Below, piece after piece: positions 70-46,046 of a stretch of DNA of 64,000 nt. Made by a program: the position numbers and the translations under genes. The notes under the pieces were generated by a model. The model saw only the letters and a program-made list of their open reading frames with translations. It searched no databases and had not been told where the DNA came from. The DNA comes from Treponema sp. (GTDB lineage: Bacteria > Spirochaetota > Spirochaetia > Treponematales > Treponemataceae): NCBI GenBank assembly GCA_016286365.1, contig JAEESN010000012.1, positions 1 through 64,000 on the forward strand, in the 5' to 3' direction. Each line of letters opens with the position of its first letter. The first letter of the stretch is position 1.

Positions 70-1386
70 TTAATCAATACATAATGCTGGAACTACTTCT
101 ATAACTGTTGCTGTAACCCAATTTTCTGGATTAGAATATGCTGTTCCATTTTTCGCAACACAATTAATTACATAGTTTTTGTTAAAATCAGGGGAGCGTA
201 ACCACCAGGGCATTGCAAAATTAGGTTGATTTTTAGGTTGATACGGAATTCCATTATTATAATAGACAGAAAGATTATTTCTAATAGCAGGGGTGTGATC
301 TCCATTTTCTTGGAATCCTCCAAAAAAAGTCGTAAATTCATAATTACTTAATAAAAAAATCTTATCATTAAGATAACTATTATCAATATATGGATTATTT
401 CCTGAATTCCACCAACCATTTTGGACAGAACTGTCAAGACTAGTATAATTAACGGGTAAAAAACTTTGAATATTATTTATAACTTTTGTAGTTAATATCT
501 TTTTTTGTTCATCTTCTGAAAATGCGGTCTGTAGAAAACCTTTATACATAAATTCGTTATTCGCAGTTTGTTCAGAAGTATTTGAAAGTTTAATCACATA
601 TGAAATGCCATTTAAATATGCTCTGATTCTTGAATGTTGATAATTACTTGGATATATTGTTTCGTTACTTATTTTTCTATTTACTGATTCATAATCATAA
701 AACATACATGTATCTAAACCTATTTCCGCAAGTAATAGTTTTTTCCCAGTAGTAGAACTGTTATTATCATGGTCAAAATCAGAACAAAGAATCCTCCATC
801 GTATAGGTTCAACTTTTAAGTATGCATAGTTTGTACTGTAATCAATTAGCTTTTTCGAATACCATTCATTATCACTTCCTTTATAATATGTGTAAAATCC
901 AACATCAATAGATTCTTCTTCATCAATGAGAACTTGATCAGATTTAAGTGTTTGTGGCCATGAACCAAATGTTATATACCGAGAAAATGTTCCTGCTGTT
1001 CCATTAAATCCTTCTTGAAGATAATGAATTGGTGAAGAAGGGGGTAAATTAAATGTTGCGAATATAGTTACATCAGTTTTAGGCATGATAAAAGTTTTAG
1101 TATTTTTATTTCCGGTAAGAGTTAATGGTATATCGTCTATAGTTTTTACTTCTATTTTACCTAATTGTGCTTTTCCATATGGTGTAATAAAAATATTTAC
1201 TAACTCTCCGGAAGAAAAATTTGTTTTTGTCGTAGTAATAGTACCATTTGTGATTCCATTTAGTATTGTTACTGAATAGTATTTATTTTCAGGTATTTGA
1301 GTAGTAGTTTTTTTGTTTGAATCAGTTGAAGTAGAACAACTTATAAAAAGTATTAATCCACAAAATAATAAAATTATTTTTTTCAT
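70..1386 (-). CDS. Exported DUF6273-type lipoprotein with an N-terminal repeat domain
   Basis: 438 residues. A short lipoprotein signal ends in the lipobox FISC, with Cys17 the likely lipidated residue, so the mature protein should be anchored in a membrane facing the periplasm or surface. Residues of about 38-115 read like a bacterial InlB-type repeat domain (paired beta strands ending in a TIFATF-like motif). Residues of about 135-438 resemble DUF6273: an IRWRIL start, a KLLLAE strand, and the hallmark WWLRSP at 394-399. The biochemical role of DUF6273 is not known to me. A GGAGG Shine-Dalgarno sits 9 nt before the ATG. It is divergent from the XRE regulator, and the gap holds several palindromes, so repression by that regulator is likely. 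Family call moderate, lipoprotein call strong. Confidence 0.75.
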   Translation of the reverse strand: MKKIILLFCGLILFISCSTSTDSNKKTTTQIPENKYYSVTILNGITNGTITTTKTNFSSGELVNIFITPYGKAQLGKIEVKTIDDIPLTLTGNKNTKTFIMPKTDVTIFATFNLPPSSPIHYLQEGFNGTAGTFSRYITFGSWPQTLKSDQVLIDEEESIDVGFYTYYKGSDNEWYSKKLIDYSTNYAYLKVEPIRWRILCSDFDHDNNSSTTGKKLLLAEIGLDTCMFYDYESVNRKISNETIYPSNYQHSRIRAYLNGISYVIKLSNTSEQTANNEFMYKGFLQTAFSEDEQKKILTTKVINNIQSFLPVNYTSLDSSVQNGWWNSGNNPYIDNSYLNDKIFLLSNYEFTTFFGGFQENGDHTPAIRNNLSVYYNNGIPYQPKNQPNFAMPWWLRSPDFNKNYVINCVAKNGTAYSNPENWVTATVIEVVPALCID

Positions 1387-1416
1387 ATTTCTAATCCTCC
1401 AAATAATTATAAAACT

Positions 1417-1530
1417 AGTAATATTTTACTTAAGTGAATCCTATGTAGTATATAATACTAATTATATCTTAACTAGGTATATCTGTCTAATTTAAAAACT
1501 TATATAGTAAAAAATTACTATCATAGTAAT
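1417..1530. promoter_or_regulatory. Cluster of operator-like palindromes between divergent genes
   Basis: Four inverted repeats share TAGTA/TACTA half sites: 1417-1430 (AGTAA/TTACT), 1446-1460 (TAGTAT-ATA-ATACTA), 1503-1521 (ATAGTAA facing TTACTAT) and 1514-1530 (ATTACTATCATAGTAAT, perfect around C1522). The last ends 6 bases before the XRE start codon. The layout fits a regulator repressing itself and the divergent lipoprotein. Confidence 0.5.
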
Positions 1531-1535
1531 ATATT

Positions 1536-1889
1536 ATGAGTTTTAATGAAAATCTAAAAGAAGCAATGTATTGTAAAAATCTTACAACAATACAATTAGC
1601 AGCTTTAACGAATATAAATTCGGGTACAATTAGTAATTATTTGAAGACAAAAGGATCAATGCCACCAGCCGATAAAGCTTTGAAATTAGCTAAGGCGTTA
1701 GATGTAAGTGTAGATTTTCTTATTAACGGTTATGATACAAAAATTGAATCTTCAATCACACATAAAAGTCCATTTTCCATTGAAGTTTTTAAACTTGCTA
1801 CAAAAATGAATAATTTCGAAAAAAATGAATTAGCAATCATATCTAACATGATTGATCTAATTGTTAAGAATAAAGCTGGCACAGAATAA
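1536..1889 (+). CDS. XRE/Cro-C1 family transcriptional regulator
   Basis: 117 residues. Residues of about 6-64 form a Cro/C1 helix-turn-helix: TTIQLAALTNINSGTISNYL carries the two DNA-contact helices, and ALDVSVDFLING is the typical end of the domain. The C-terminal 50 residues are unlike any effector domain I know and may dimerise. There is no Shine-Dalgarno before the ATG; a TAATAT lies just upstream and a 17-bp palindrome covers the promoter region, so autoregulation is likely. Its place at the head of a lipoprotein and toxin-antitoxin island suggests a local regulator rather than a global one. Confidence 0.88.
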   Translation: MSFNENLKEAMYCKNLTTIQLAALTNINSGTISNYLKTKGSMPPADKALKLAKALDVSVDFLINGYDTKIESSITHKSPFSIEVFKLATKMNNFEKNELAIISNMIDLIVKNKAGTE

Positions 1890-1913
1890 TTGTCTTTTAG
1901 AATACATTATTTT

Positions 1914-2303
1914 TTAAATAGAAATCCCCAGTTTGGTACAAAGTGCTTCCTGCAATGTCTGGCTAAAGTTGATAGCTGCTTTTTCTGCTTTAGTATTTAA
2001 CCAGCTTGGAATTGTTAGGGTTTTCTTTACAGCTTTATTATCAACAAGTTTTCGCCATTCATCAGTGTCCGCTACAACAAGAGAAATTATTCCATCTGTT
2101 TTTATATCTTCAATCTTACTTGGTTTTGGAACTTCTTTATTTTCATCTTCATAGGTTGCGAGCATCATTGCAATGACATCTTGTGCCATATAAATTGCAT
2201 CAGCCATATCATCACCAAAAGTAAAAGTAGATGGAATATCCGGAACTGTAACACCGACTTTTCCATCATCATTTTCAAAAATTACAGGATATACATATTT
2301 CAT
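1914..2303 (-). CDS. hicB: HicB-family antitoxin
   Basis: 129 residues. The N-terminus (YPVIFENDDGKVGVTVPDIP, then TFGDDMADAIYMAQDVI) is the HicB partial RNase-H-like fold. The C-terminus (TIPSWLNTKAEKAAINFSQTLQEAL) looks like a ribbon-helix-helix DNA-binding tail. The gene follows hicA on the same strand with a 48-bp gap, in the usual toxin-first order. HicB neutralises HicA by binding it and represses the operon. A GGAGG Shine-Dalgarno precedes the ATG. Confidence 0.88.
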   Translation of the reverse strand: MKYVYPVIFENDDGKVGVTVPDIPSTFTFGDDMADAIYMAQDVIAMMLATYEDENKEVPKPSKIEDIKTDGIISLVVADTDEWRKLVDNKAVKKTLTIPSWLNTKAEKAAINFSQTLQEALCTKLGISI

Positions 2304-2351
2304 AAAAAAGCCTCCAAATAAAGGGCAGGCATTTCTGCCTACCCAAAACTC

Positions 2352-2528
2352 CTATTGCAGCTTAGCCTGCTTCAGAATTTTTTGAGCCGTACCCGTCGGT
2401 ATGTCTCCAGTATGGCGTGGAATAGGCACTTTTTGACCTGTTGGACTAACCGCTAGATCATGCGCCGCACCGTGAACGATCTTCCAGCCGGCTTTCTTGA
2501 ACTTTCGTTCAATTTCAAGCTTTGTCAT
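2352..2528 (-). CDS. hicA: HicA-family mRNA interferase toxin (short ORF)
   Basis: 58 codons, starting MTKLEIERKFKKAGWKIV. It has the small dsRBD-like HicA fold: a glycine-rich turn with the catalytic histidine (GAAHDLAV, His24), a PTGQKVPIPRH strand pair, and the closing GTAQKILKQAKL helix. HicA toxins cleave mRNA in the ribosome-linked or free pool until bound by HicB. The catalytic His is kept, so the toxin is probably active. GGAGG lies 6 nt before the ATG. The gene is easily missed because of its length. Confidence 0.87.
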   Translation of the reverse strand: MTKLEIERKFKKAGWKIVHGAAHDLAVSPTGQKVPIPRHTGDIPTGTAQKILKQAKLQ

Positions 2529-2548
2529 ATCGTTCCTCCATACTTATT

Positions 2549-2577
2549 AATATATACGTATATTATACGTATGTCAA
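2549..2577 (-). promoter_or_regulatory. hicAB promoter with embedded palindromic operators
   Basis: On the minus strand TTGACA (2577-2572) and TATATT (2554-2549) are 17 bp apart. Two palindromes lie within the core promoter, ATACGTAT (2565-2572) and ATATACGTATAT (2552-2563), with centres 11 bp apart, about one helical turn. This suits cooperative repression by HicB. Confidence 0.65.
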
Positions 2578-2596
2578 ATTCAAAATTAAAAATTCC

Positions 2597-2623
2597 TTGC
2601 GAATATATATATATATATATAAT
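2597..2623 (+). promoter_or_regulatory. Promoter with AT-dinucleotide spacer (candidate phase-variable)
   Basis: TTGCGA (2597-2602) and TATAAT (2618-2623) are separated by 15 bp made only of AT dinucleotides; the full tract is nine AT units (2603-2620). Slippage by one unit would change the spacer from 15 to 17 or 13 bp. It drives the lipoprotein gene at 2659, and the same layout recurs at 4003-4029. Confidence 0.6.
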
Positions 2624-2658
2624 GGAAGAAAGAAACCAAGTTTTTTAAGGAGCAAAAA

Positions 2659-3171
2659 ATGAGAAAATTGATTTTAAGTATTTTTGTGCTGGCTATGGTA
2701 TTTGGATTTACCGGATGTAAGAATGATGCACCAAATGGAAGTACAGGCTCTGATGAACCAGAATGGCATGCAGGAAATTGGTATAAGGGAGAACTTATTG
2801 TGGATAGTCTCAATAATCCCCATGTATATTTTTCTTGGGAAGAAGTTAGCGAGGCAAATGTTGATGAAGAAAGTTGTTATTATCGTGATTGTTTTTATCT
2901 GGATAATCCGAAGTTTTCAGAATGTGTAAAATTAGAAGCATATAATCTTGCGGATAATGAATTGATTCATTCTGAGGAAGCACATACAATGGGAAGAGAT
3001 GTTAACTCCTTGATGAATGAAGGCGGTGCAATTATAAGGAATAGGGCAATTATTGTACCTGTTACACCCTGGCAGGTTAGTCTGGTAAATGATAGGCCTA
3101 ATTATTATAATACAAAAGCAGTTTATTATTTTGATGATGGAACTACTTTGACATATTATTATGCCAGATAA
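2659..3171 (+). CDS. Small lipoprotein, paralogue A
   Basis: 170 residues. The signal peptide ends in lipobox FTGC (Cys20), followed by an acidic, serine- and glycine-rich linker. The mature part has no domain I recognise. It ends in a strand-rich AVYYFDDGTTLTYYY motif. The disrupted gene at 4063-4581 is a clear paralogue: it shares GCKND, EPEWH, LDNPKF and YFDDGTT in the same order. AAGGAG lies 7 nt before the ATG. The promoter spacer is an AT repeat, so expression may switch on and off. The opposite-strand PIN toxin gene ends only 5 bp downstream. Function unknown; a surface or periplasmic role is inferred. Confidence 0.8.
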   Translation: MRKLILSIFVLAMVFGFTGCKNDAPNGSTGSDEPEWHAGNWYKGELIVDSLNNPHVYFSWEEVSEANVDEESCYYRDCFYLDNPKFSECVKLEAYNLADNELIHSEEAHTMGRDVNSLMNEGGAIIRNRAIIVPVTPWQVSLVNDRPNYYNTKAVYYFDDGTTLTYYYAR

Positions 3172-3176
3172 CTGGA

Positions 3177-3584
3177 TTAAACTTCTACCACACAAGGCTC
3201 ATTGTAACCGCGGAAAAAAGGGTCATGGGTCAAAAAGGTAAAGCCTTCTGCCTTGGCCTGCGAAAGCATTATGCGGTCAAAAGGATCACTATGTGGAGGG
3301 GCTGCTTCATCGCGCTCTAAGCCGGCAAGCTCTTTTACATGTAAATCGTCTATTGGCAGCTTGTGATAACCGGATTCTTCGCAGTAATGCATAAATTCTA
3401 TTCCGGAAATCGGCAGTTTTTTTCTGTCGTATTTTATCTGTGTTTCCCACATTGAGGCGATGCTGTAATAGATAGAGCCGATGTTGGCTTTTATAATGTT
3501 TCTTGCTTTTTGGGATAATCTTTTGTCTCCTGCAATCATCCAGAGAATAATGTGAGTATCAAGTAAAAGTTCATTCCGTCGCAT
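3177..3584 (-). CDS. PIN-domain toxin (VapC-like RNase)
   Basis: 135 residues covering one PIN domain. The acidic metal-binding set is visible: Asp9 in LLLDTHIILW, Glu47 in SMWETQIK, the Asp pair in DPFDRIMLSQA, and the Asp in FLTHDPFF. PIN toxins of type II systems cut tRNA or mRNA using Mg2+ or Mn2+. It lies 21 bp after its antitoxin gene on the same strand, antitoxin first. The DTHIILW and SDPFDR motifs match the subgroup usually paired with Phd/YefM antitoxins, which fits here. The target RNA cannot be read from the sequence. Confidence 0.9.
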   Translation of the reverse strand: MRRNELLLDTHIILWMIAGDKRLSQKARNIIKANIGSIYYSIASMWETQIKYDRKKLPISGIEFMHYCEESGYHKLPIDDLHVKELAGLERDEAAPPHSDPFDRIMLSQAKAEGFTFLTHDPFFRGYNEPCVVEV

Positions 3585-12044: not shown

Positions 12045-14303
12045 TCATGGCCGCTCGATAAAATCTATAAAGTCGCGTTCAGATAATGGTTTAGAGAAGA
12101 AGTAGCCCTGAACCTGGTCGCAGTCAATCGATTTAAGGAAATCAATCTGGGCCTGTGTTTCAACTCCTTCGAATATCGTCTGTTTCTTTAAGTTCTTACT
12201 CAATTCAATCAGCTTTTCTATAAAGTTTGCAGAAGTAGAATCGATTGTGCCCGACTGTGTTGTTGAAGAAACAAGGAAGGTTCTGTCGAATTTCAAAACA
12301 TCAACCGGAATCTGTGTGAGCATGTTGAGCGAAGATTCACCGCTACCAAAGTCATCCATTGCAACCGTAAATCCTTCTTTATGTAAAAGCTCGGTAAATT
12401 CGCGAAGGGTGTTTCCGTTCATAAATGAGCGCTCAAGAATTTCAACTTCTACGAGGGAAGGCTGGATGTTGTATTTTCTGAACAAAGTCATAAAGTCGTG
12501 CATAAATTTTTCAGGCTTACTGTGACTTCTGGACATATTTACAGAAATCGGGACAACAGTGCGGTTTTCATCAATCTGCTTTTGAAGGAAGGCGAATACC
12601 CTGTCGTAAACATAATAATCAAGCTTTTTAATAAATCCGTTGCGTTCAAAAAGCGGAATAAATTCATCGGGCATCACAATTCCAAGATTAGGGCTGTTCC
12701 ATCTTACAAGCGCTTCGGCACCAACGACCTTATCAGAAATCAGTTCAATCTTAGGCTGATACATCACAAAGAATTCGCCTTTTTCCAGAGCGGCTTCCAT
12801 ATTGTTTTCGATGAATCTTTCCTTGTTGATTTTTTCGAGCAGGCGCGAATTGTAGATAGAATACTGTGTGAGCATGTTGTCTTTAATCGTGCTCTTTGCA
12901 AAAGAAGCCTGACCGATGAGTTCCTGGATTGTAGTTGTCTGTTCCCTTCCTTTAGCGCTCAAAAATGCAATACCGAATTTTGGGAAGAATGGAATATCAT
13001 AAGCTTTGATTTCTTCGGAAAGCTTTTCGTTTTCGTTTTTAAATACGTTCATCGCATTGTGGATGGAACTTACCTTAATAAAGAAATAAAAGTGATCGGC
13101 AAATCCTCGTCCTACAAGCGCATTCATCCTGAAGGAAATACTCTGAAGCTGTTCTGCAAGATATTTTATCAGGTTATCTGCCGCTTCTTCCCCGTAATTC
13201 TGATTGATGAATTTAAATCCGCGGATATCACACTCTATAAGCATGAATTTAGAATTCTGATTATGTTTTAAAAGTTTTGTTGCTTCGTGTTCAAAATGCT
13301 GCCTTGTCCATAGCTTTGTTAAAGGATCGTAGAGGGTAGCGAGCATCTGTTTTTTCTGGAAGAAATTCATCACAGCCATTTCTATTCCAAGGAACAAAAT
13401 AATTGTTGCAAGTGCGATGACAATTATAAGGAAGAATTTATGCAAGTGCTTTTGATACAGCTTATCAAAATGATTCTGTGGAATTTTAAGTGTGAGCGTC
13501 CAGTCCAGAAGAGGTATCTTTTGTGTGATGAGAGAGATTTTTTCTTCGTTTACATCAATGCTTTCGATATATTCTGAGTCGCGTTTTGCAATGTGTTCTG
13601 TAGATAAAAGTGAGTATTCAGACTGTGGCGGAACGAATTTTTTAAACAGCCATACAGGATCTGTGTGAACGATAAAATATCCTTTGCTATCCAGAATGCA
13701 GAGGAACTGATCTTTTTCAAGTTTTATCTGATTTACAAGGTCATTAAGCTTTTCTAATTTGATGGTTCCGCCTAAAGCACCCTTTACATTTCCTTGTGAA
13801 TCTTTGACAGCCTTTGCAAAAATAAGTTCGCTTTCTTCAGGGGCTTCTTCGTTCTTTAGAGTTTCAGAAATGATTAAATCCTTATTTTCAAAAAAGAGGG
13901 GATTAAAAATATCAGTGTTTTCGAACTTATATTCATCGCCGTCTGCATCGTGATAGATAAAATCCCTGTTCACATAGAAGAAACGTTTAAAATCCGGATG
14001 AATCTGACCCCTTGTTTTAGTGAGATATGAATAAATCTGTGAGTCCGAAGCCTTTTCGAAGAAATCTTTTTCGTAAACTGATGAAAGGGAAGTGATATAT
14101 AATTCGGCTCTGTCTGATATCATCTGGCCGTATCCTTCCACAATTGTCTGCATATCGGAAATATATAATTTTTCAGTTTGTTTTTTGATTGAATTAATTA
14201 GAATTGTCGAAAGAAACATTACAATAATGATTACGACAATCAGTATTATAAAGGTGGAAACCAGCTTTGCTTTTTCAGGGTTGATAAGTCTTTTATTCTT
14301 CAT
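12045..14303 (-). CDS. Membrane dCache-GGDEF-EAL signalling protein (probable c-di-GMP phosphodiesterase)
   Basis: 752 residues. A membrane helix at about 15-38, a periplasmic double-Cache-like sensor (about 40-280), a second helix (about 285-310), then GGDEF and EAL domains. The GGDEF signature is degraded (GRGFADHF in place of GGDEF), so cyclase activity is unlikely. The EAL domain keeps EALVRW, VNMS, EILERS, MDDFGSG, LKFDRTF and EGVET, so it should cut c-di-GMP to pGpG. The start is uncertain: ATG 14303 is used, while GTG 14312 would add three residues. It should link an external small ligand to motility or surface behaviour. Confidence 0.9.
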   Translation of the reverse strand: MKNKRLINPEKAKLVSTFIILIVVIIIVMFLSTILINSIKKQTEKLYISDMQTIVEGYGQMISDRAELYITSLSSVYEKDFFEKASDSQIYSYLTKTRGQIHPDFKRFFYVNRDFIYHDADGDEYKFENTDIFNPLFFENKDLIISETLKNEEAPEESELIFAKAVKDSQGNVKGALGGTIKLEKLNDLVNQIKLEKDQFLCILDSKGYFIVHTDPVWLFKKFVPPQSEYSLLSTEHIAKRDSEYIESIDVNEEKISLITQKIPLLDWTLTLKIPQNHFDKLYQKHLHKFFLIIVIALATIILFLGIEMAVMNFFQKKQMLATLYDPLTKLWTRQHFEHEATKLLKHNQNSKFMLIECDIRGFKFINQNYGEEAADNLIKYLAEQLQSISFRMNALVGRGFADHFYFFIKVSSIHNAMNVFKNENEKLSEEIKAYDIPFFPKFGIAFLSAKGREQTTTIQELIGQASFAKSTIKDNMLTQYSIYNSRLLEKINKERFIENNMEAALEKGEFFVMYQPKIELISDKVVGAEALVRWNSPNLGIVMPDEFIPLFERNGFIKKLDYYVYDRVFAFLQKQIDENRTVVPISVNMSRSHSKPEKFMHDFMTLFRKYNIQPSLVEVEILERSFMNGNTLREFTELLHKEGFTVAMDDFGSGESSLNMLTQIPVDVLKFDRTFLVSSTTQSGTIDSTSANFIEKLIELSKNLKKQTIFEGVETQAQIDFLKSIDCDQVQGYFFSKPLSERDFIDFIERP

Positions 14304-35551: not shown

Positions 35552-38500
35552 TTAGTTCCACCAGTAAAGGGAAGAATTTTTCATCAATGAATAATTACTG
35601 TCATTATCCATCTGTAATGGTAAGAATTTTCTTCTTACATCTGCACTTGATGTATCTATAACAGTTGATGTGTTTCCGTTTCTTGTTACAGTTATCTTAA
35701 GTTTAGAATTCGACGGAAGATTTACGCTGACTTTTCCGCTGTATAAAACTTCTGTCTGGTCGCTTTCGGAACAGCTGGCATTAAAGTCAAAGAATGCATT
35801 ATCATCTCTTAAAATTCTGTAAATATATGAATCAGAAAGTCCTTTTATACCTACAAGAGTTCTGTTCGATGTAATAGAAAGGAAGTCTGTAGATTTTCCA
35901 TCAGGTCCCAAAATAGAAGGAAGATAATTCTGGCATGTATAGGCAGTCTTGTATTTACCTACACCAAAATATTCTTCTATACCGCCTGCATATGAACGAC
36001 CTTCGAAAATCACAGAGCCTGAAAATCCTGGAAGAGTACCTTCGTTATTAAATGTAAATTTTGTACTTATATTTGAATAATCAGCATACCCACCGCTTTG
36101 TCTGTAGTAGGCATACGCAAACTCAAGCATAACAGCGCGTGCAAACTCTGTGTCGTTAATCTGTCTTATAGCGTATACAGGTTTTTCTGTTCCCGAAGAA
36201 GTCTGCTTTTTACTGATTGTTGTATATTCTGAATCAATTCCGTTTTTCTTTAATACAATTTTATAGTAGTGTTTGTAATCCCTGAGCACCATCAAAGGAC
36301 CGGAAGTTACCGGAACAGATGAATCAGCCATTGTTACAGGTTTAAGGGAAAGACTTGTGTCTGTTGTAGAAATACTTGTGTTTGTAAGGCTTTCTTTAGA
36401 AGAATACTTACAGTCTTTATCGAGAGTTGCAACTTTAATCCATGTGTCGTCTGCACAGGCACTTAAGTTAGAGTTATAGATATAAATTTCCGAGCCTTCA
36501 TCAGGGCCGATCGAACGGTTATCATAATCCCACGAGGCCCAGCTTACAAGTTCACTGTAGTAGTTTTCGTCGTTTACATAGTTTCCGCCCGGGCCAGGAG
36601 TTCCGCCGTAACATGCATCAAAATCAATAGACAAAAGATATCCCTTGTTTGCCTGCTCTGTTGCAACACCTGTGTAATCGTAGCGATCTTCTTTTTCAAG
36701 AGAAAGCTTTTCCACATAGCTTACGGGAACAGTCATGCTTGAATCTGTTTTATTGTAGATAATACAGTATTCGTAAGCATCTAATACCGATTTTGGCTTA
36801 AATGATGCAGTTGTTTTAGAAGAAGTAAGGTTTAGGGTGATTTTCTGCCATGCATTGTTTGTGCCGCTCAATCTTGTGTAAACTTGAGGAACAGATTCGT
36901 AATAAGGCTTTTGCCAGCTTACGTTTTGAGTAGATGAGTTTTCTGCCTTATCTGCCTGAATGTTTAAGCCGTATCCCCAGGTAGCAGATTTTACATCCTG
37001 TAATGTGCCTTCGTAAATAACTTTAGAATCACTTCCATCCTGAACTTTAAGATAATTAGAAGCTGAATTTCCAAATTTAAAATCATCTGCAGTTCCGTTA
37101 TTTTTTACAGGAAGAACAGTGTATCCGAACGGAAGACCCCACGAAAGCTCAGACTGATTTACTTCGTATGCGTTTGTTGAATCATCAGGTTCTTTATAAA
37201 TATCTGTCAGGATAAAATCATCACCCGAAACAGTAACCTTTGCCCTTGATGCGCTCACTTCGTCTCCGTTTATATAAATCTTCTGAGTCTTTGTGTCATA
37301 AAAATATTTATCTGCACGGTCGAATGCCCATGAGTTTCCGTCAGGTTTATATTTATTTCTGTTGATGATGTAGGCTCCTGCTCCGGTAATCTTTTTCCAG
37401 CTGATTCTTATACTCTGATCATAAACCGAATCATCCTTTCTAAGATTGATTTTTGAAGGTCCCAAAAGGCATGTGTTTATGGTAGCAGTCGTTGTATCAA
37501 GAGTCTGAGTATTTTTAGCAGTGATTGTTACAACAATTGTTTTTCCCGCATATGACGGATTATTGTATTTAGAAGGAGCTGTGATTACTGTTTCGTAAAC
37601 TTCTGTTGCTTCGTTGTAAGCAGTTGTACTTGTATTTATTGATGTTACAAGCTCAGTGCTTTCTCCTTCGTATTTTGCGCTGATTGTATAGTTTGTGTCT
37701 GCTTTCTGAACGCTTTCCCACGATACAGTAATTGTTTTGTAATCGATTGTTTCAAGATTAAAATATGGAATGGCAGTTCCAAGTGTTTTAGAAACAGTTT
37801 CGTAAGTTTTTGTGCTGGAAATTCCCTGCTGATTTTTTACTGTAAGAGTATAAAGCCTCTGATCTCCGGATTCGGCTGCATGAGTAAAGTTGATTTTTCC
37901 GCCACTTACAGAATAATCAGAAGAAGCTAATTCCTTAGAGCCGGTTTCTCCATACTGATTTTCCCAGGAGATGATGTAAGTTCCGTTTGTAATTGCGCTC
38001 CACGAAAGCTTAAACTTATCTTTAAATCCATCCTGAATTTCAAAATTATTGATTACAGGCTTTTGAGAAACATCTTCTACAACTGTTACGCTCTGATTTA
38101 ATTCAATGCAGTCGTAGTATTCAGTCGGAACAGAAGAAACCGGTAAATCAGTTGCCGGAGTGATGTAGAGTTTAAAGTAATAATATCCTTCCCATTTATC
38201 TGCGCCTTCTGCATCTTTAGTAAGAAGAGATTCTACAAGGCGGGTAGGGTTTCCGTTCATATTTGTGCAGCTTAAGAATTTTTCTGCGTCAAAGGTATTA
38301 GAGTTGAAGGATTTATGTTTTTTAGTAAGTACAAGATTATAAGGAATATTTTTGTCGTTAAAAGTGATGTTGAAACTTACGTTTACATTCTGAATTACGT
38401 TTTGTTCTTCGTTTATGATGTCTGTCGCATTTACTAAAATAGAAGGAACAGGTAAAGCCCATCCGTTCTGGGTAGCGCATGAAGAATCAGAAGTAAAGTT

Positions 38501-39640
38501 TTTGTCTGTGTCGTCTGTGTAAGACTGGACTTTATATGTGTAAGTTTTTGTTCTGTCTACGTTCACATCTTGGAAAGTGAGTTTACTCTGAGAAATATAA
38601 GAAGCGTACTCACCGGTCAATGCAGTTCCGTCGGCCTTTTGTATTGTGATGATTGAATTATCAGTAGTTTCTGTCTGGCAGTTAAAATGTATTTCTGCCT
38701 TAGAGTTTGAAAGCCCCTGTGCTCCTATTGTCTTAATCAGGATGTAATCGCTGTCTTCCTGAGATTCAAGCTTTCTGAATACCTTAAAGTAAACAGGATG
38801 CTTGTCGCTTGTGTTTGTAGAAGTATCGCTCTGGTAGTCTACAGGTTCGGGTAAAAGCCAGCTTAGAGTGATTTTATTTTTTGAAGTTCCTTTTTCGACC
38901 TCAAGATTAATCGGCTTTTGCGGAATGATTCTTTTTGCAGTCTGTTCCTTAGTTAAATCACTTTTTTCAAAATCATTCGTCTTTGTATTTTTTACGGTAA
39001 CCTGGAAGTAATAATCAGTTTTTGGGATGAGGTTTGTTACAGTAGCCTCGCGTGTTTTTGCATCAGTTGTGATTACGTCGATTCCAGGAGCTGGTATTTT
39101 TCCGTCTTTATCTGAATATGTGTTTACGGTGAATTCGATGTCGTTTTCGTAGGTCTTTGAATTACAGTTATCCATCCACCACTTAAGATTGATGCTTTCT
39201 CCTTCGTCGTTCGGAGTGATTTCGTAGATTGCAGGAATATCAAGAGTGGAACCCGAAACTTTCATGCTTTTTTTGGATTCAGTTCCATAATAATTCACGG
39301 CAGTTACACAGTACCATTCAGTAAGACCGCTTGGAGTTTCTTTTGCCTGAGAAGTGCTGAAGCTTGTTAAATTCGTTTCTCCGATTGATTCAAAAACTTC
39401 GAACGGGGTAGGGGCAGAATAGATTTTATACTGAACCGCATTTTCTACCTTTTCCCATGTGAGTGTAACATCCTTACTTAATCCATGGCTTGCGCTTATG
39501 CTCGAAGGGGGAAGAATATAATCATCATAATCGGAAGGATTTTTATTTAATTTTCCGAAAGATGAAGGAGAATCAACCAGATCATACTGGCATGAAATAA
39601 AACTGAATAAAACCAATAAAAAAACTAAAAATTTCTTCAT
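35552..39640 (-). CDS. Very large fibronectin type III repeat surface lipoprotein
   Basis: 1362 residues. Signal peptide with lipobox FISC (Cys17). At least six FnIII-like repeats can be read, for example VTLTWEKVENAVQYKIY near 58, NKITLSWLLPEPVDY near 250, KFKLSWSAITNGTYIISW near 540, TITVSWESVQKADTNY near 640, and SIRISWKKITGAGAYIINR near 745. The last 400 residues are distinct. First gene of a minus-strand operon of four surface proteins. It is probably an adhesive or matrix-contact protein. It is divergent from the aconitase-family gene. Confidence 0.85.
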   Translation of the reverse strand: MKKFLVFLLVLFSFISCQYDLVDSPSSFGKLNKNPSDYDDYILPPSSISASHGLSKDVTLTWEKVENAVQYKIYSAPTPFEVFESIGETNLTSFSTSQAKETPSGLTEWYCVTAVNYYGTESKKSMKVSGSTLDIPAIYEITPNDEGESINLKWWMDNCNSKTYENDIEFTVNTYSDKDGKIPAPGIDVITTDAKTREATVTNLIPKTDYYFQVTVKNTKTNDFEKSDLTKEQTAKRIIPQKPINLEVEKGTSKNKITLSWLLPEPVDYQSDTSTNTSDKHPVYFKVFRKLESQEDSDYILIKTIGAQGLSNSKAEIHFNCQTETTDNSIITIQKADGTALTGEYASYISQSKLTFQDVNVDRTKTYTYKVQSYTDDTDKNFTSDSSCATQNGWALPVPSILVNATDIINEEQNVIQNVNVSFNITFNDKNIPYNLVLTKKHKSFNSNTFDAEKFLSCTNMNGNPTRLVESLLTKDAEGADKWEGYYYFKLYITPATDLPVSSVPTEYYDCIELNQSVTVVEDVSQKPVINNFEIQDGFKDKFKLSWSAITNGTYIISWENQYGETGSKELASSDYSVSGGKINFTHAAESGDQRLYTLTVKNQQGISSTKTYETVSKTLGTAIPYFNLETIDYKTITVSWESVQKADTNYTISAKYEGESTELVTSINTSTTAYNEATEVYETVITAPSKYNNPSYAGKTIVVTITAKNTQTLDTTTATINTCLLGPSKINLRKDDSVYDQSIRISWKKITGAGAYIINRNKYKPDGNSWAFDRADKYFYDTKTQKIYINGDEVSASRAKVTVSGDDFILTDIYKEPDDSTNAYEVNQSELSWGLPFGYTVLPVKNNGTADDFKFGNSASNYLKVQDGSDSKVIYEGTLQDVKSATWGYGLNIQADKAENSSTQNVSWQKPYYESVPQVYTRLSGTNNAWQKITLNLTSSKTTASFKPKSVLDAYEYCIIYNKTDSSMTVPVSYVEKLSLEKEDRYDYTGVATEQANKGYLLSIDFDACYGGTPGPGGNYVNDENYYSELVSWASWDYDNRSIGPDEGSEIYIYNSNLSACADDTWIKVATLDKDCKYSSKESLTNTSISTTDTSLSLKPVTMADSSVPVTSGPLMVLRDYKHYYKIVLKKNGIDSEYTTISKKQTSSGTEKPVYAIRQINDTEFARAVMLEFAYAYYRQSGGYADYSNISTKFTFNNEGTLPGFSGSVIFEGRSYAGGIEEYFGVGKYKTAYTCQNYLPSILGPDGKSTDFLSITSNRTLVGIKGLSDSYIYRILRDDNAFFDFNASCSESDQTEVLYSGKVSVNLPSNSKLKITVTRNGNTSTVIDTSSADVRRKFLPLQMDNDSNYSLMKNSSLYWWN

Positions 39641-42011: not shown

Positions 42012-42078
42012 AAAATACCTTTCTAATTCCTGCAAGAATGAGTCAAGAGCTTGAACGAAGTGTCTCTTGACCATTCTT
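42004..42078. other. Two consecutive hairpins after the hydratase gene
   Basis: Hairpin 1: GGAATTAGAAA (42004-42014) with TTTCTAATTCC (42020-42030), 11 bp, perfect, spanning the hydratase stop codon. Hairpin 2: AAGAATG-A-GTCAAGAG (42034-42049) with CTCTTGACCATTCTT (42064-42078), 15 bp with one bulged A. Neither is followed by a T run. Confidence 0.7.
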
Positions 42079-42096
42079 ATCGTGGTTAGACACCCA

Positions 42097-43254
42097 ATGA
42101 AAAAATTTATTAGTATTTTATTTTTATCAGTTTTGGTTTCTCAAGGCTTTATTATGGCTTCCGAAAGAACGGACTTTGTTAAGAACTTAAATAAATACGG
42201 AAGATATTTTTATTCAGCTAAAAACGACCAGGTAATCGAATTTGAAACAAGCGGAAGTGATGAGATTATCAAAAGAGTTTATACAGTTTCTCTAAAAGAT
42301 AAATCACTCAATCTGGAAGAAGAAAAATCACTGGATGTAATTAATGTCCCTTTTAATGAGTTTGATGCAGTAAGAAAAAGCTTCAGTATATTTAATAAAA
42401 TAAGCGAGCGCCGGAATCCGGAAGCTTATTATGATTCAAAAAGGGAATATGTTATAAATTTTACTTATACGGAAGGAAAAATCATTTATTATTATGTACC
42501 GGGAAAGAATCTTACAGAAGTTTATAAGTATATAGAAAAATTTAAAAAATCAGGAATAAAAAATCAGAAGGTAACTCTTGAAGCAGTGAGTGAGTTTGAC
42601 TGGGACTATCGTGATTCAGTGCAGTATATTTACATAGATGAATATGGATATAAAAATGTTCAGGTTATAGATGGAGATTCATTTCTTCTTATTGACGGGC
42701 CTGAACCTAGTTCCATTACTTTTAAAAGAGATAAGAATGGTAAACTTGCAGAATCATATTTTCTTGAAAGACCTTCGCTTATAGGTTCTACACTTAAATT
42801 TACAGCATCCTCAACTTTAAAAGATAAAAATCATACATATTCTGCAGATAATCTTAATACTACGTTTGACAGAAGTGAGTTTCCCCGACAGATGTTAAAA
42901 AATCCTGTTCCTTGGGTAGAAGGTGTAAAAGGTCCTGGAATAGGTGAGACAATTGAATTTGATAATATTCCTTCAAGATATGGTTTTTATATTGTGATTC
43001 TAAATGGATATGTAGATCCGCTCAAACCCTATTTATTCCGCGAAAACAACAGAATTAAAAAGCTTAAAGTCGAAACAGATACAGGTTATTCGGAAGTTAT
43101 AGAATTTAATGATCAGGTTGAGTTTAAAATGGTTAAATATCCATACGAGGCTGCAAAAGTAAAGCTTACTATTCTGGAAGTTTATAAAGGAACAAAATAT
43201 GATGATACGTGCATCACTTCGATGTACCTTTTGAATACAGCCTGGGCTAAATAA
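42097..43254 (+). CDS. Exported protein with probable glycan-binding C-terminal domain
   Basis: 385 residues from ATG 42097, where a Sec signal peptide (about 1-23, cut near IMA-S) begins; a TTG at 42067 lies in a hairpin and is rejected. The C-terminal 130 residues (WVEGVKGPGIGETIEF, then NGYVDPLKPYLFRENNRIKKL, then YKGTKYDDTCITSMYLL) match the pattern of the NADase-type or discoidin-like glycan-binding domain of many secreted Treponema proteins. The N-terminal half is unrecognised. It probably acts in the periplasm or on the surface. Confidence 0.75.
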   Translation: MKKFISILFLSVLVSQGFIMASERTDFVKNLNKYGRYFYSAKNDQVIEFETSGSDEIIKRVYTVSLKDKSLNLEEEKSLDVINVPFNEFDAVRKSFSIFNKISERRNPEAYYDSKREYVINFTYTEGKIIYYYVPGKNLTEVYKYIEKFKKSGIKNQKVTLEAVSEFDWDYRDSVQYIYIDEYGYKNVQVIDGDSFLLIDGPEPSSITFKRDKNGKLAESYFLERPSLIGSTLKFTASSTLKDKNHTYSADNLNTTFDRSEFPRQMLKNPVPWVEGVKGPGIGETIEFDNIPSRYGFYIVILNGYVDPLKPYLFRENNRIKKLKVETDTGYSEVIEFNDQVEFKMVKYPYEAAKVKLTILEVYKGTKYDDTCITSMYLLNTAWAK

Positions 43255-43332
43255 AAAAAGGTTTTAGAATCACCAAACATAGTGTATAATTTTAAAATCG
43301 AGTGAGTTCAAACAGGTTGGTACGGAGTAATT

Positions 43333-45225
43333 TTGGCAAAAAAGAAAATCGCAGTTTTATGTACAGGTCTGGCTCATAATACAATCCTTTCTATATTAAA
43401 TGGAATGAAGGAAGCTTCTCTTGAACGGGAAGTGGATTTATATATATTTAACTGCTATACATACACAGAATTTTCAGGATATCCGAACAGCACAGGTTTT
43501 TCTGTTTACCGCCTTATTCACTACGAAGATTTTGACGGCGTTATAATTCTTTCCGATTTAATCAATAATTTGAGGGTCCTGGAAAAAGAAAGACAGAGGA
43601 TTTTAGCTTCGGGTAAACCTGCTGTATCAATCAACTATAAGCTTGAAGGTCTTGGTTTTTTACGTGTAGATACTTATTCAGCCTTTTACGAAATTGTAGA
43701 ACATCTGATTAAAGAGCATGAGGTAAAAAATCTTGTATTCTTTTCGGGAAGGGAAAATACCTTTGAAAATACAGAAAGATATAAGGCCTTTAGAAAAGCA
43801 ATGCAGGATAATTCAATTCCTCTTTCACAGGAAAATATCTGGTCTATAAAAAACGGTTACTACAACTACGCATATGACTTTGCAATGGAAAAATTTTCTA
43901 CACTGGAGCAGATTCCTGATGCAATTGTATGTGCAAACGATTTTATTGCTCTTGGAGTTTTAAAAGCTGCAGAAGAAAAAAAAATACAGGTGCCCCAAAC
44001 TTTAAAAATAACCGGTTGTGATGATATTCATTATTCAAGTTCTGTAATTCCTTCCCTTACGACTGTAGACGGTTCATTAAAAAAACTCGGCTTTGAAGCA
44101 GTTAAATATGTTTTAAACGATAATCGCCAGGATGTAGAGCAGATTAAGGCTGAACCTATTTTCCGTGATTCATGCGGCTGCGTTACAGGAATCAATCTTA
44201 GCCAGAAACTTTCTTATCTTAAGGAACTTGATAACATCAGTCAGACAGAAGCGTTTACTTCGCAGGTAGATCATCTTGAAGATATTTTTACCGAAGCAAC
44301 CGATGTTTTTACACTTTTGACAAACCTTGAATTATTCTTAAATGCATCTCATAAATTCGAAGGCTCTGATTTCTGTATCTTTTTAAAATCAGACTGGACA
44401 TCTGTATTTGTAAATTCCGAAGAAAATCTTCCGCAGAATCTTAATTACGGGGAACAAGTCCAGTCAGTTATTTCCATCATGAATAACGAAAAATATCTTA
44501 GAGAGATGATTAATACAAGGCAGCTCATTCCTTCAAAAATGAAGTCAGAAAAACCAGCCTTATATCTTTTTATGCCGATTTATAATCACTCTTATGTTCA
44601 TGGTTATTATGTCTGTAAAGATTCCCTTTTGATGATGGAAAACCGTTTTGGCTATACCTGGACTCGTAAGTTTGGCTCAAGCATTGAATTATTCAGAAAG
44701 CGCAATATGTTTAAGCAGATGAGTAATCAGTTTTTACGCCTTTCTACAAACGACGGACTTTCGGGACTTTTGAATCGTGTCGGACTTGAAAAACTTGCTA
44801 AACCGTTCTTCGATAAAAACAAAAAGAACGGACTTACAAGCATTCTTTACTTTGTTGATATAAACTCCATGAAGACTATAAACGATAAATTCGGACATCT
44901 TCACGGCGACCTTGCGGTTAAGACGATTGCTTCTGTTATTTCTTCTGTCATCCCTAAAAATTGGCTTGCAATCCGTTATGGTGGTGATGAATTTTTAATT
45001 CTTGGCAATAACAGTAATTATAAAGGCGAAAAATACGAAGAGCTTATTGCTCAGTCAATAAAAAATAAAACTTCGATTATGCAGCTTCCATATAATCTTA
45101 GCGCAAGTATAGGAAATTACGTTGTTCCGCCAACTTCCGCAATGAGTCTTGAAGAAGCAATTAAGGCAGTTGATTCGATTATGTATGCTAAAAAACAGGC
45201 ATTCCATAACAGCGAAAAAAAATAA
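43333..45225 (+). CDS. LacI-type ligand-binding domain fused to a GGDEF diguanylate cyclase
   Basis: 630 residues, TTG start with GGAG 6 nt upstream. Residues of about 4-285 are a periplasmic-binding-protein-like fold of the LacI type (DFDGVIILSDL, AIVCANDFIALGVLKAA, KITGCDDI, PSLTTVD), but with no helix-turn-helix before it and no signal peptide or membrane helix, so the sensor is cytoplasmic. A GAF-like linker follows, then a GGDEF domain with intact GGDEF (550-554) and FVDINSMKTINDKFGHLHGD. No RxxD inhibition site is seen before it. It should make c-di-GMP in response to a sugar-like ligand. Confidence 0.9.
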   Translation: MAKKKIAVLCTGLAHNTILSILNGMKEASLEREVDLYIFNCYTYTEFSGYPNSTGFSVYRLIHYEDFDGVIILSDLINNLRVLEKERQRILASGKPAVSINYKLEGLGFLRVDTYSAFYEIVEHLIKEHEVKNLVFFSGRENTFENTERYKAFRKAMQDNSIPLSQENIWSIKNGYYNYAYDFAMEKFSTLEQIPDAIVCANDFIALGVLKAAEEKKIQVPQTLKITGCDDIHYSSSVIPSLTTVDGSLKKLGFEAVKYVLNDNRQDVEQIKAEPIFRDSCGCVTGINLSQKLSYLKELDNISQTEAFTSQVDHLEDIFTEATDVFTLLTNLELFLNASHKFEGSDFCIFLKSDWTSVFVNSEENLPQNLNYGEQVQSVISIMNNEKYLREMINTRQLIPSKMKSEKPALYLFMPIYNHSYVHGYYVCKDSLLMMENRFGYTWTRKFGSSIELFRKRNMFKQMSNQFLRLSTNDGLSGLLNRVGLEKLAKPFFDKNKKNGLTSILYFVDINSMKTINDKFGHLHGDLAVKTIASVISSVIPKNWLAIRYGGDEFLILGNNSNYKGEKYEELIAQSIKNKTSIMQLPYNLSASIGNYVVPPTSAMSLEEAIKAVDSIMYAKKQAFHNSEKK

Positions 45226-45260: not shown

Positions 45261-46046
45261 ATGGTTGATTATACAGAAGGTTCTGGAAAACAGTATCACA
45301 CAGGAGTAGGCCCGGACGATATCGGTAAATATGTAATTATGCCGGGAGATCCAAAACGCTGTGCAAAAATTGCAGAACATTTTGAAAACGCAAAACTGAT
45401 TGCAGATGTCCGTGAATATGTAACATATACTGGAACACTCGATGGTGAAAAAGTTAGTGTAACTTCTACTGGAATCGGAGGTCCTTCTGCTTCCATTGCA
45501 ATTGATGAACTAGCCAAGTGCGGGGCTCATACATTTTTAAGAGTCGGAACCTGCGGCGGTATGCAGGAAGATGTTTTAGGCGGCGATATTGTAATTGCTA
45601 CAGGAGCCGTTCGTATGGAAGGAACAAGCCGTGAATTTGCTCCGATTGAATATCCTGCAGTTCCAAGCCTTGACTGTGTAAATGCTTTGGTTAGTGCCGC
45701 AGATAAACTGGGAGCCCGCCATCACGTGGGTGTCGTTCAGTGTAAGGATTCTTTTTTTGGCCAGCATGAACCCGAAGTTATGCCTGTAAGCTATGAACTT
45801 GAAAATAAATGGCAAGCCTGGCTTCGTATGGGATGTCTTGCAAGCGAGATGGAAAGTGCGGCTTTATTTATTGCGGGGCAGTTTTTACGCGTTAGGGTAG
45901 GAAGCTGTTTTCTGGTAGTTGCTAATCAGGAAAGGGCAAAAAAAGGATTACCTAACAAACAGGCTCACGACACTGAACTTGCAATCACTGTTACTGTAGA
46001 AGCTATGAGGCAGCTCATTCAGAAAGACAAAGCTTTAAAAAAGTAA
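45261..46046 (+). CDS. udp: Uridine phosphorylase
   Basis: 261 residues. Splits uridine with phosphate to uracil and ribose-1-phosphate, a nucleoside salvage step. PNP/UDP family motifs: [16 protein letters not shown] (phosphate site), [26 protein letters not shown], and the ribose-binding [18 protein letters not shown] precedes the ATG. The MoxR-like ATPase starts 15 bp downstream. Confidence 0.93.

Follow-up and report, generated by a model that had tools for sequence, protein, structure and literature searches.

A putative ligand-gated diguanylate cyclase with a LacI-type sensor in Treponema, and the [S/T]CGC joint it shares with other HTH-less LacI receptors

We analyzed a 64,000-nucleotide stretch of a Treponema sp. 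genome (contig JAEESN010000012.1; hereafter the window) and found a gene whose product is probably a soluble, ligand-gated cytoplasmic diguanylate cyclase (Table 1). A LacI-type ligand-binding domain is followed by a conserved middle domain, a connecting helix and a GGDEF domain. The LacI-type domain exits through an SCGC motif and, on sequence grounds, an [S/T]CGC joint at this position marks a cross-phylum class of HTH-less LacI receptors, with exceptions.

Domain layout and conservation

Table 1 Features of the focal gene and its neighbor (window coordinates).
Feature	Position	Strand	Basis
Whole gene, 630 aa, TTG start	43333-45225	+	ORF analysis
GGAG ribosome-binding site	43324-43327	+	Sequence
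LacI-type ligand-binding domain, residues 3-283, HTH-less	43339-44181	+	Pfam, PDB sequence matches, model match
SCGC motif, residues 280-283, LacI-domain exit	44170-44181	+	Sequence, alignments
Conserved middle domain without family name, residues 290-464	44200-44724	+	Alignment, low-confidence models (GAF-like)
Connecting helix region, residues 452-472	44686-44748	+	Model, 81% mean pairwise identity in 28 orthologs
GGDEF domain, residues 473-626	44749-45210	+	Pfam
PKNW where RxxD I-site would fall	44953-44964	+	Alignment
GGDEF active-site motif, residues 550-554	44980-44994	+	Alignment
Uridine phosphorylase gene udp, neighbor, not generally conserved there	45261-46046	+	TIGR01718

Pfam searches of the focal protein returned Peripla_BP_3 at residues 122-281 (E=4.8e-21; 76 bits, cut-off 26.5), Peripla_BP_1 at 6-262 (E=3.3e-9) and GGDEF at 473-626 (E=2e-26), and an NCBIfam GGDEF domain model also matched; no NCBIfam equivalog exceeded its cut-off among the 25 of 37 matches listed. 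The PDB sequence matches of the LacI part included a LacI ancestor, CcpA and PurR, and its predicted model aligned to known structures with a best Z of 17.9 over 240 residues (rmsd 8.4). No LacI HTH was found by Pfam, and the reading frame is open for just 9 codons 5' of the start; the start position and hydropathy (best 19-residue window 1.36) revealed neither a signal peptide nor a membrane segment. These results uphold an earlier note on this DNA, which had described a cytoplasmic LacI-type sensor joined to a GGDEF domain, with no signal peptide; the GGDEF domain looks intact, and membrane location, which the note had named as a refuter, was not seen. The proposal of the note that the protein turns sugar status into c-di-GMP, free of product inhibition, is a putative one. 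Its statement that the LacI domain had lost its DNA-binding domain stands as to the absent HTH but is too simple, since the fused relatives scanned with Pfam also lack a LacI HTH. Two features escaped the note, namely the SCGC motif at residues 280-283 and the conserved domain at 290-464.

We searched 146 genomes of the genus (at most 8 candidates scored per genome for most genomes) and grouped matches by identity to the focal protein: group A (47-100%, at least 28 full-length), A-truncated (about 52%, at least 4 members), group B (34-41%, at least 9 members) and group C (30-32%, 9 fetched of at least 10). Group D comprises distant paralogs of the same architecture, four from the source genome and one from G145. 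The counts leave out G071 (group A, contig end) and G008:C215 (group C); the alignment leaves out L031 and L034 (the same as records L002 and L010), the GGDEF-only matches L051, L052 and L054, and the second L090 frame. The nearest named relative, from a yak-rumen Treponema MAG (L031), is 83% identical, and dN/dS against it (0.076-0.117 per domain) indicates purifying selection.

The LacI-GGDEF architecture occurs in five proteins of the source genome, where half of the LacI-type places (5 of 10) carry a GGDEF fusion. Among the matches listed, the fused places numbered at least 6 of 17 in G015, 8 of 14 in G077, 7 of 13 in G105 and 5 of 10 in G145, giving at least 31 of 64 LacI-type domains in the five genomes with the gene (source included), and 0 of 30 in G001, G018, G042 and G120, which had no group A-C match; these eight other genomes were picked by presence or absence of the gene, and the fraction is no genus average. 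Contig, strand, spacing and frame length were matched by hand for these counts.

Further observations were made nearby and in the source genome. A second GGDEF match lies in the window at 12885-13334 (minus strand), inside a 762-codon frame; elsewhere, L064 (G000:C11:32500-39500) contains neighboring frames of 640 and 635 codons, each with a weak GGDEF match. The frame 5' of the focal gene (42067-43254, plus strand) encodes an NADase-type glycan-binding / F5/8 C domain with, by eye, a likely export signal. In a long ORF at 35552-39640 (minus strand), the start looks lipoprotein-like by eye and a single fibronectin III match falls short of the cut-off.

The catalytic domain is strongly conserved. 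YGGDEF, D509, N517 and GD525-526 are present in 28/28 full-length orthologs, and GGDEF together with the metal and substrate positions is invariant in 46/46 aligned full-length group A-C members; we assume the residue roles (metal Asp, substrate Asn/Asp) by analogy with PleD. The earlier note was also right that the focal protein lacks an RxxD I-site. This site is absent from all 46 aligned full-length group A-C members, whereas all five group D paralogs carry it, and its loss is therefore a trait of the subfamily. One C-terminal position is His in the focal protein, where PleD has Arg, a point against the cyclase reading.

In the LacI-type domain, R149 is kept in 28/28 full-length orthologs, Y177 in 26/28, N202 in 25/28 and D230 in 27/28; we take these to be pocket-type residues with roles as in LacI and PurR. 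D230 aligns with a conserved Asp of the repressors in the PDB sequence alignment, to which we likewise ascribe a ligand role. The ligand is most likely a small cytoplasmic molecule, a sugar or sugar-like metabolite.

Gene context was considered as a guide to the ligand and rejected, the neighbors being udp, xylan, uronate, chemoreceptor-type and unrelated genes with no common theme. The earlier note had pointed to udp: its identity as uridine phosphorylase (TIGR01718, 320.1 bits against a cut-off of 280.3) and its adjacency, 35 bases 3' of the focal gene on the same strand, were confirmed, but the link is weak, udp adjoining the gene in just 11/28 full-length orthologs (flanks up to 1.5 kb, some ending at contig ends), with one extra case, L065, in which it lies two frames off. 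No aconitase-like or MoxR-like neighbor accompanied udp in 8 of the 9 udp loci examined. A GH39-cluster gene stands beside 3/28 orthologs (L069, L073, L083; Pfam on one), two of them with a SASA-cluster gene near, a chemoreceptor cluster beside 6/28 (Pfam on one, L065), and glucuronate isomerase beside 1/28 (L084). In L084 (2318-5680, minus strand) the ortholog frame directly follows the isomerase frame on the same strand.

Mean pairwise identity in the 28 orthologs rose from 54% in the LacI part to 64% over residues 290-452 and 81% in the connecting helix, and was 77% in GGDEF. The middle domain had no match among PDB sequences (best E=0.56), and a Pfam search with 50 members yielded no convincing family: 18 were listed, each in one or two members and none of them GAF, the best being DUF2490 (E=2.6e-4) in one member. 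In two AlphaFold models of low confidence (mean pLDDT 59 and 56), helices and strands follow one another as in GAF domains. The top Foldseek match of the low-confidence model was a GAF protein (E=0.11), with PDB 5w10 (Lcd1) also among the matches, and the top structural rows were GAF domains (best Z 6.7, all below Z 8). We tentatively describe the modeled domain as GAF-like.

The SCGC joint and its distribution

The LacI exit reads RxSCGC in 25/28 and RxTCGC in 3/28 group A members, and SCGC is found in 4/4 A-truncated, 9/9 group B, 8/9 group C and 2/5 group D proteins; of the three group D proteins without the cysteine pair, two have SCGY and one has no cysteine. The source genome also encodes a LacI-type histidine kinase (L103, G000:C15:5500-10500, 1180-3255, minus strand). 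A middle-domain profile run on 149 Spirochaetota genomes gave matches in 6, five of them weakly, and all of the weak-match frames read (seven of eight, G248:C12 left out) proved to be LacI fusions. Their outputs were SpoIIE in one and LuxR-type HTH with PAS-like matches in two; of two related frames, the one scanned showed a weak, truncated AraC-type HTH match. The other two had no recognized output (one at a contig end, one without the N-terminal lobe in frame). SCGC is present in 8/8 distant fusions, namely these seven frames and L103, a HisKA_3/HATPase protein. It was found in 0/20 repressor-size LacI-type proteins (4 from the source genome, 10 from G015, 5 from G077, 1 from G120), whose N-termini were, by eye, HTH-type in 19 and that of a lipoprotein-like binding protein in one (L138).

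Because profile-based sampling risked circularity, we also searched with the motif alone. In 120 Spirochaetota genomes this gave 10 matches against 3 in the reversed control, four in frames of 15-52 aa and six in frames of 746-819 aa. All six long frames (L163 and L128 being the same locus) encode LacI receptors that lack an N-terminal HTH and carry the motif at the LacI exit; their outputs are GGDEF in two, HD_5 (HD-GYP type) in one, PAS with LuxR-type HTH in two and a histidine-kinase type (HisKA below cut-off) in one. The HD_5 receptor (L160, 19-2457, minus strand) would probably place c-di-GMP breakdown under the same type of sensor. In 40 genomes of the family of L041 (Lachnospiraceae), six matches against one in the control were obtained, three of them in frames of 23-127 aa. 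The other three lie in long frames that without exception encode LacI receptors, of which two are histidine kinases and the third is a LacI-GGDEF protein of 637 aa like the focal one. The scans undercount, as they accepted Ser as TCN only and only Glu at x; the source genome, where joints read RDSCGC and others, gave 0. The focal protein has each feature of the proposed grouping: a LacI core, no HTH, [S/T]CGC at the exit and further C-terminal domains.

Cyclase-less sensors, mechanism and rival explanations

Four group A relatives from four species (G004, G024, G053, G063) retain the sensor and the middle domain but run only into the first part of the connecting helix before a stop. They form one clade inside group A with support of 100/100, in which pairwise dN/dS (NG86) ranged over 0.04-0.09 in the LacI part and 0.03-0.07 in the middle domain, at dS of 0.8-2.5, near saturation. 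A relocated cyclase was not found in these genomes (assemblies 83-94% complete), the best-scoring GGDEF matches being 33-34% identical, with a maximum of 37% over a partial match. The sensor is thus kept under purifying selection without a cyclase and so has at least one use besides controlling its own cyclase, which counts against the ligand-gated cyclase reading. The D230 position is Gly in 4/4 of these proteins versus Asp in 27/28 full-length orthologs, and their ligand response has perhaps changed. A rubrerythrin-cluster gene lies directly 3' of the sensor in 4/4, with a Cys/Met PLP-enzyme cluster near (Pfam on one each); the records L079-L082 and L039 (the named isolate Treponema sp. C6A8) show this arrangement.

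In the mechanism we propose, the two LacI-type lobes would close on a small cytoplasmic molecule bound between them. The SCGC joint and then the GAF-like middle domain would relay this closure to the connecting helix, and the helix would set the GGDEF dimer geometry and with it the rate of c-di-GMP synthesis. What the sequence itself shows is the order of the domains, the cytoplasmic nature of the protein, its intact catalytic motif, the missing I-site, and the conservation of the pocket-type residues and of the connecting helix; such conservation is proof of neither binding nor activity. Ligand binding, dimerization, cyclase activity, the direction of the switch and weak or no product inhibition we infer.

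The conserved cysteines allow another reading, in our judgment unlikely: the SCGC joint would be a switch that responds to redox conditions or metal, this signal would be one input to the protein or its main one, and the LacI lobes would act as a modulator. This would fit the conservation of [S/T]CGC across fused LacI receptors with many outputs, its 0/20 count in repressor-size proteins, and the neighborhood of the four cyclase-less sensors, each followed at once by a rubrerythrin-cluster gene, with a Cys/Met PLP-enzyme cluster close by; however, the cysteine pair is missing in 3/5 group D and 1/9 group C proteins, the cysteines may be structural, and the rubrerythrin link is that of one lineage. 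A combined reading is doubtful but conceivable: SCGC would add a further gate that responds to redox or metal, and one protein would read metabolite and redox or metal state together and pass the result to interchangeable outputs. These might, just as tentatively, extend over c-di-GMP synthesis, HD-GYP breakdown, histidine kinase, SpoIIE phosphatase, LuxR- or AraC-type DNA binding and the stand-alone sensor. In the focal protein, the motif may be a second input.

CcpA binds HPr-Ser-P, a precedent for a LacI-type domain that binds a protein or serves dimerization with no small-molecule sensing. That CcpA is among the closest PDB matches of the LacI-type domain, and that D230 is replaced by Gly in the whole cyclase-less clade, would agree with such a role; the retention of the pocket-type residues in nearly all full-length orthologs speaks against it, and we regard it as improbable. 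Least probable, and only barely credible, is an inactive GGDEF domain with a partner- or GTP-binding role: the cyclase can indeed be lost while the sensor stays, but the GGDEF, metal and substrate positions do not vary in any of the aligned A-C members. The preferred reading thus remains the ligand-gated cyclase.

Relation to known systems and significance

The focal protein has the core fold and pocket-type residues of LacI/GalR repressors (LacI, PurR, RbsR, CcpA) but differs from them in its lack of an HTH, its enzyme output and its SCGC tail. In the part of a 2022 review consulted (PMC8846402), Peripla_BP-type domains are already listed in c-di-GMP enzymes, with possible binding of solutes including sugars and no validated role; the architecture is therefore not new. 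The Peripla_BP + GGDEF proteins in that part likewise join a LacI-family-like ligand domain to a c-di-GMP enzyme, although the PBP-clan domains are described there as periplasmic, whereas the focal one is cytoplasmic by sequence and adds a middle domain and the SCGC joint. The consulted part also covers RmcA of Pseudomonas aeruginosa (SBP_bac_3), again a binding-protein type sensor in a c-di-GMP protein, which differs in being a periplasmic, arginine-sensing phosphodiesterase, and Lcd1 of Leptospira interrogans (GAF-GGDEF, cAMP), also a spirochete cyclase, whose GAF fold is possibly common to the middle domain. The ligand of Lcd1 is a cyclic nucleotide, unlike that proposed for the focal protein. 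We know of no LacI domain in Lcd1. A second source (PMC12268683), in the part consulted, gives Peripla_BP_4 for LsrB and LuxP only.

Our searches of the open-licence PMC literature turned up no work on LacI-GGDEF fusions or on the SCGC motif, nor any mention, in the papers searched, of the middle domain, of an SCGC joint common to several outputs or of the natural loss of the cyclase. The wider group of SCGC LacI sensors is apparently unstudied.

The LacI-type domain is the textbook example of a transcriptional sugar switch. If active, the LacI-GGDEF fusions would tie c-di-GMP, and hence motility or attachment, directly to nutrient state. The SCGC joint, together with the cyclase-less sensors, offers a clean handle on how LacI domains signal to outputs other than DNA.
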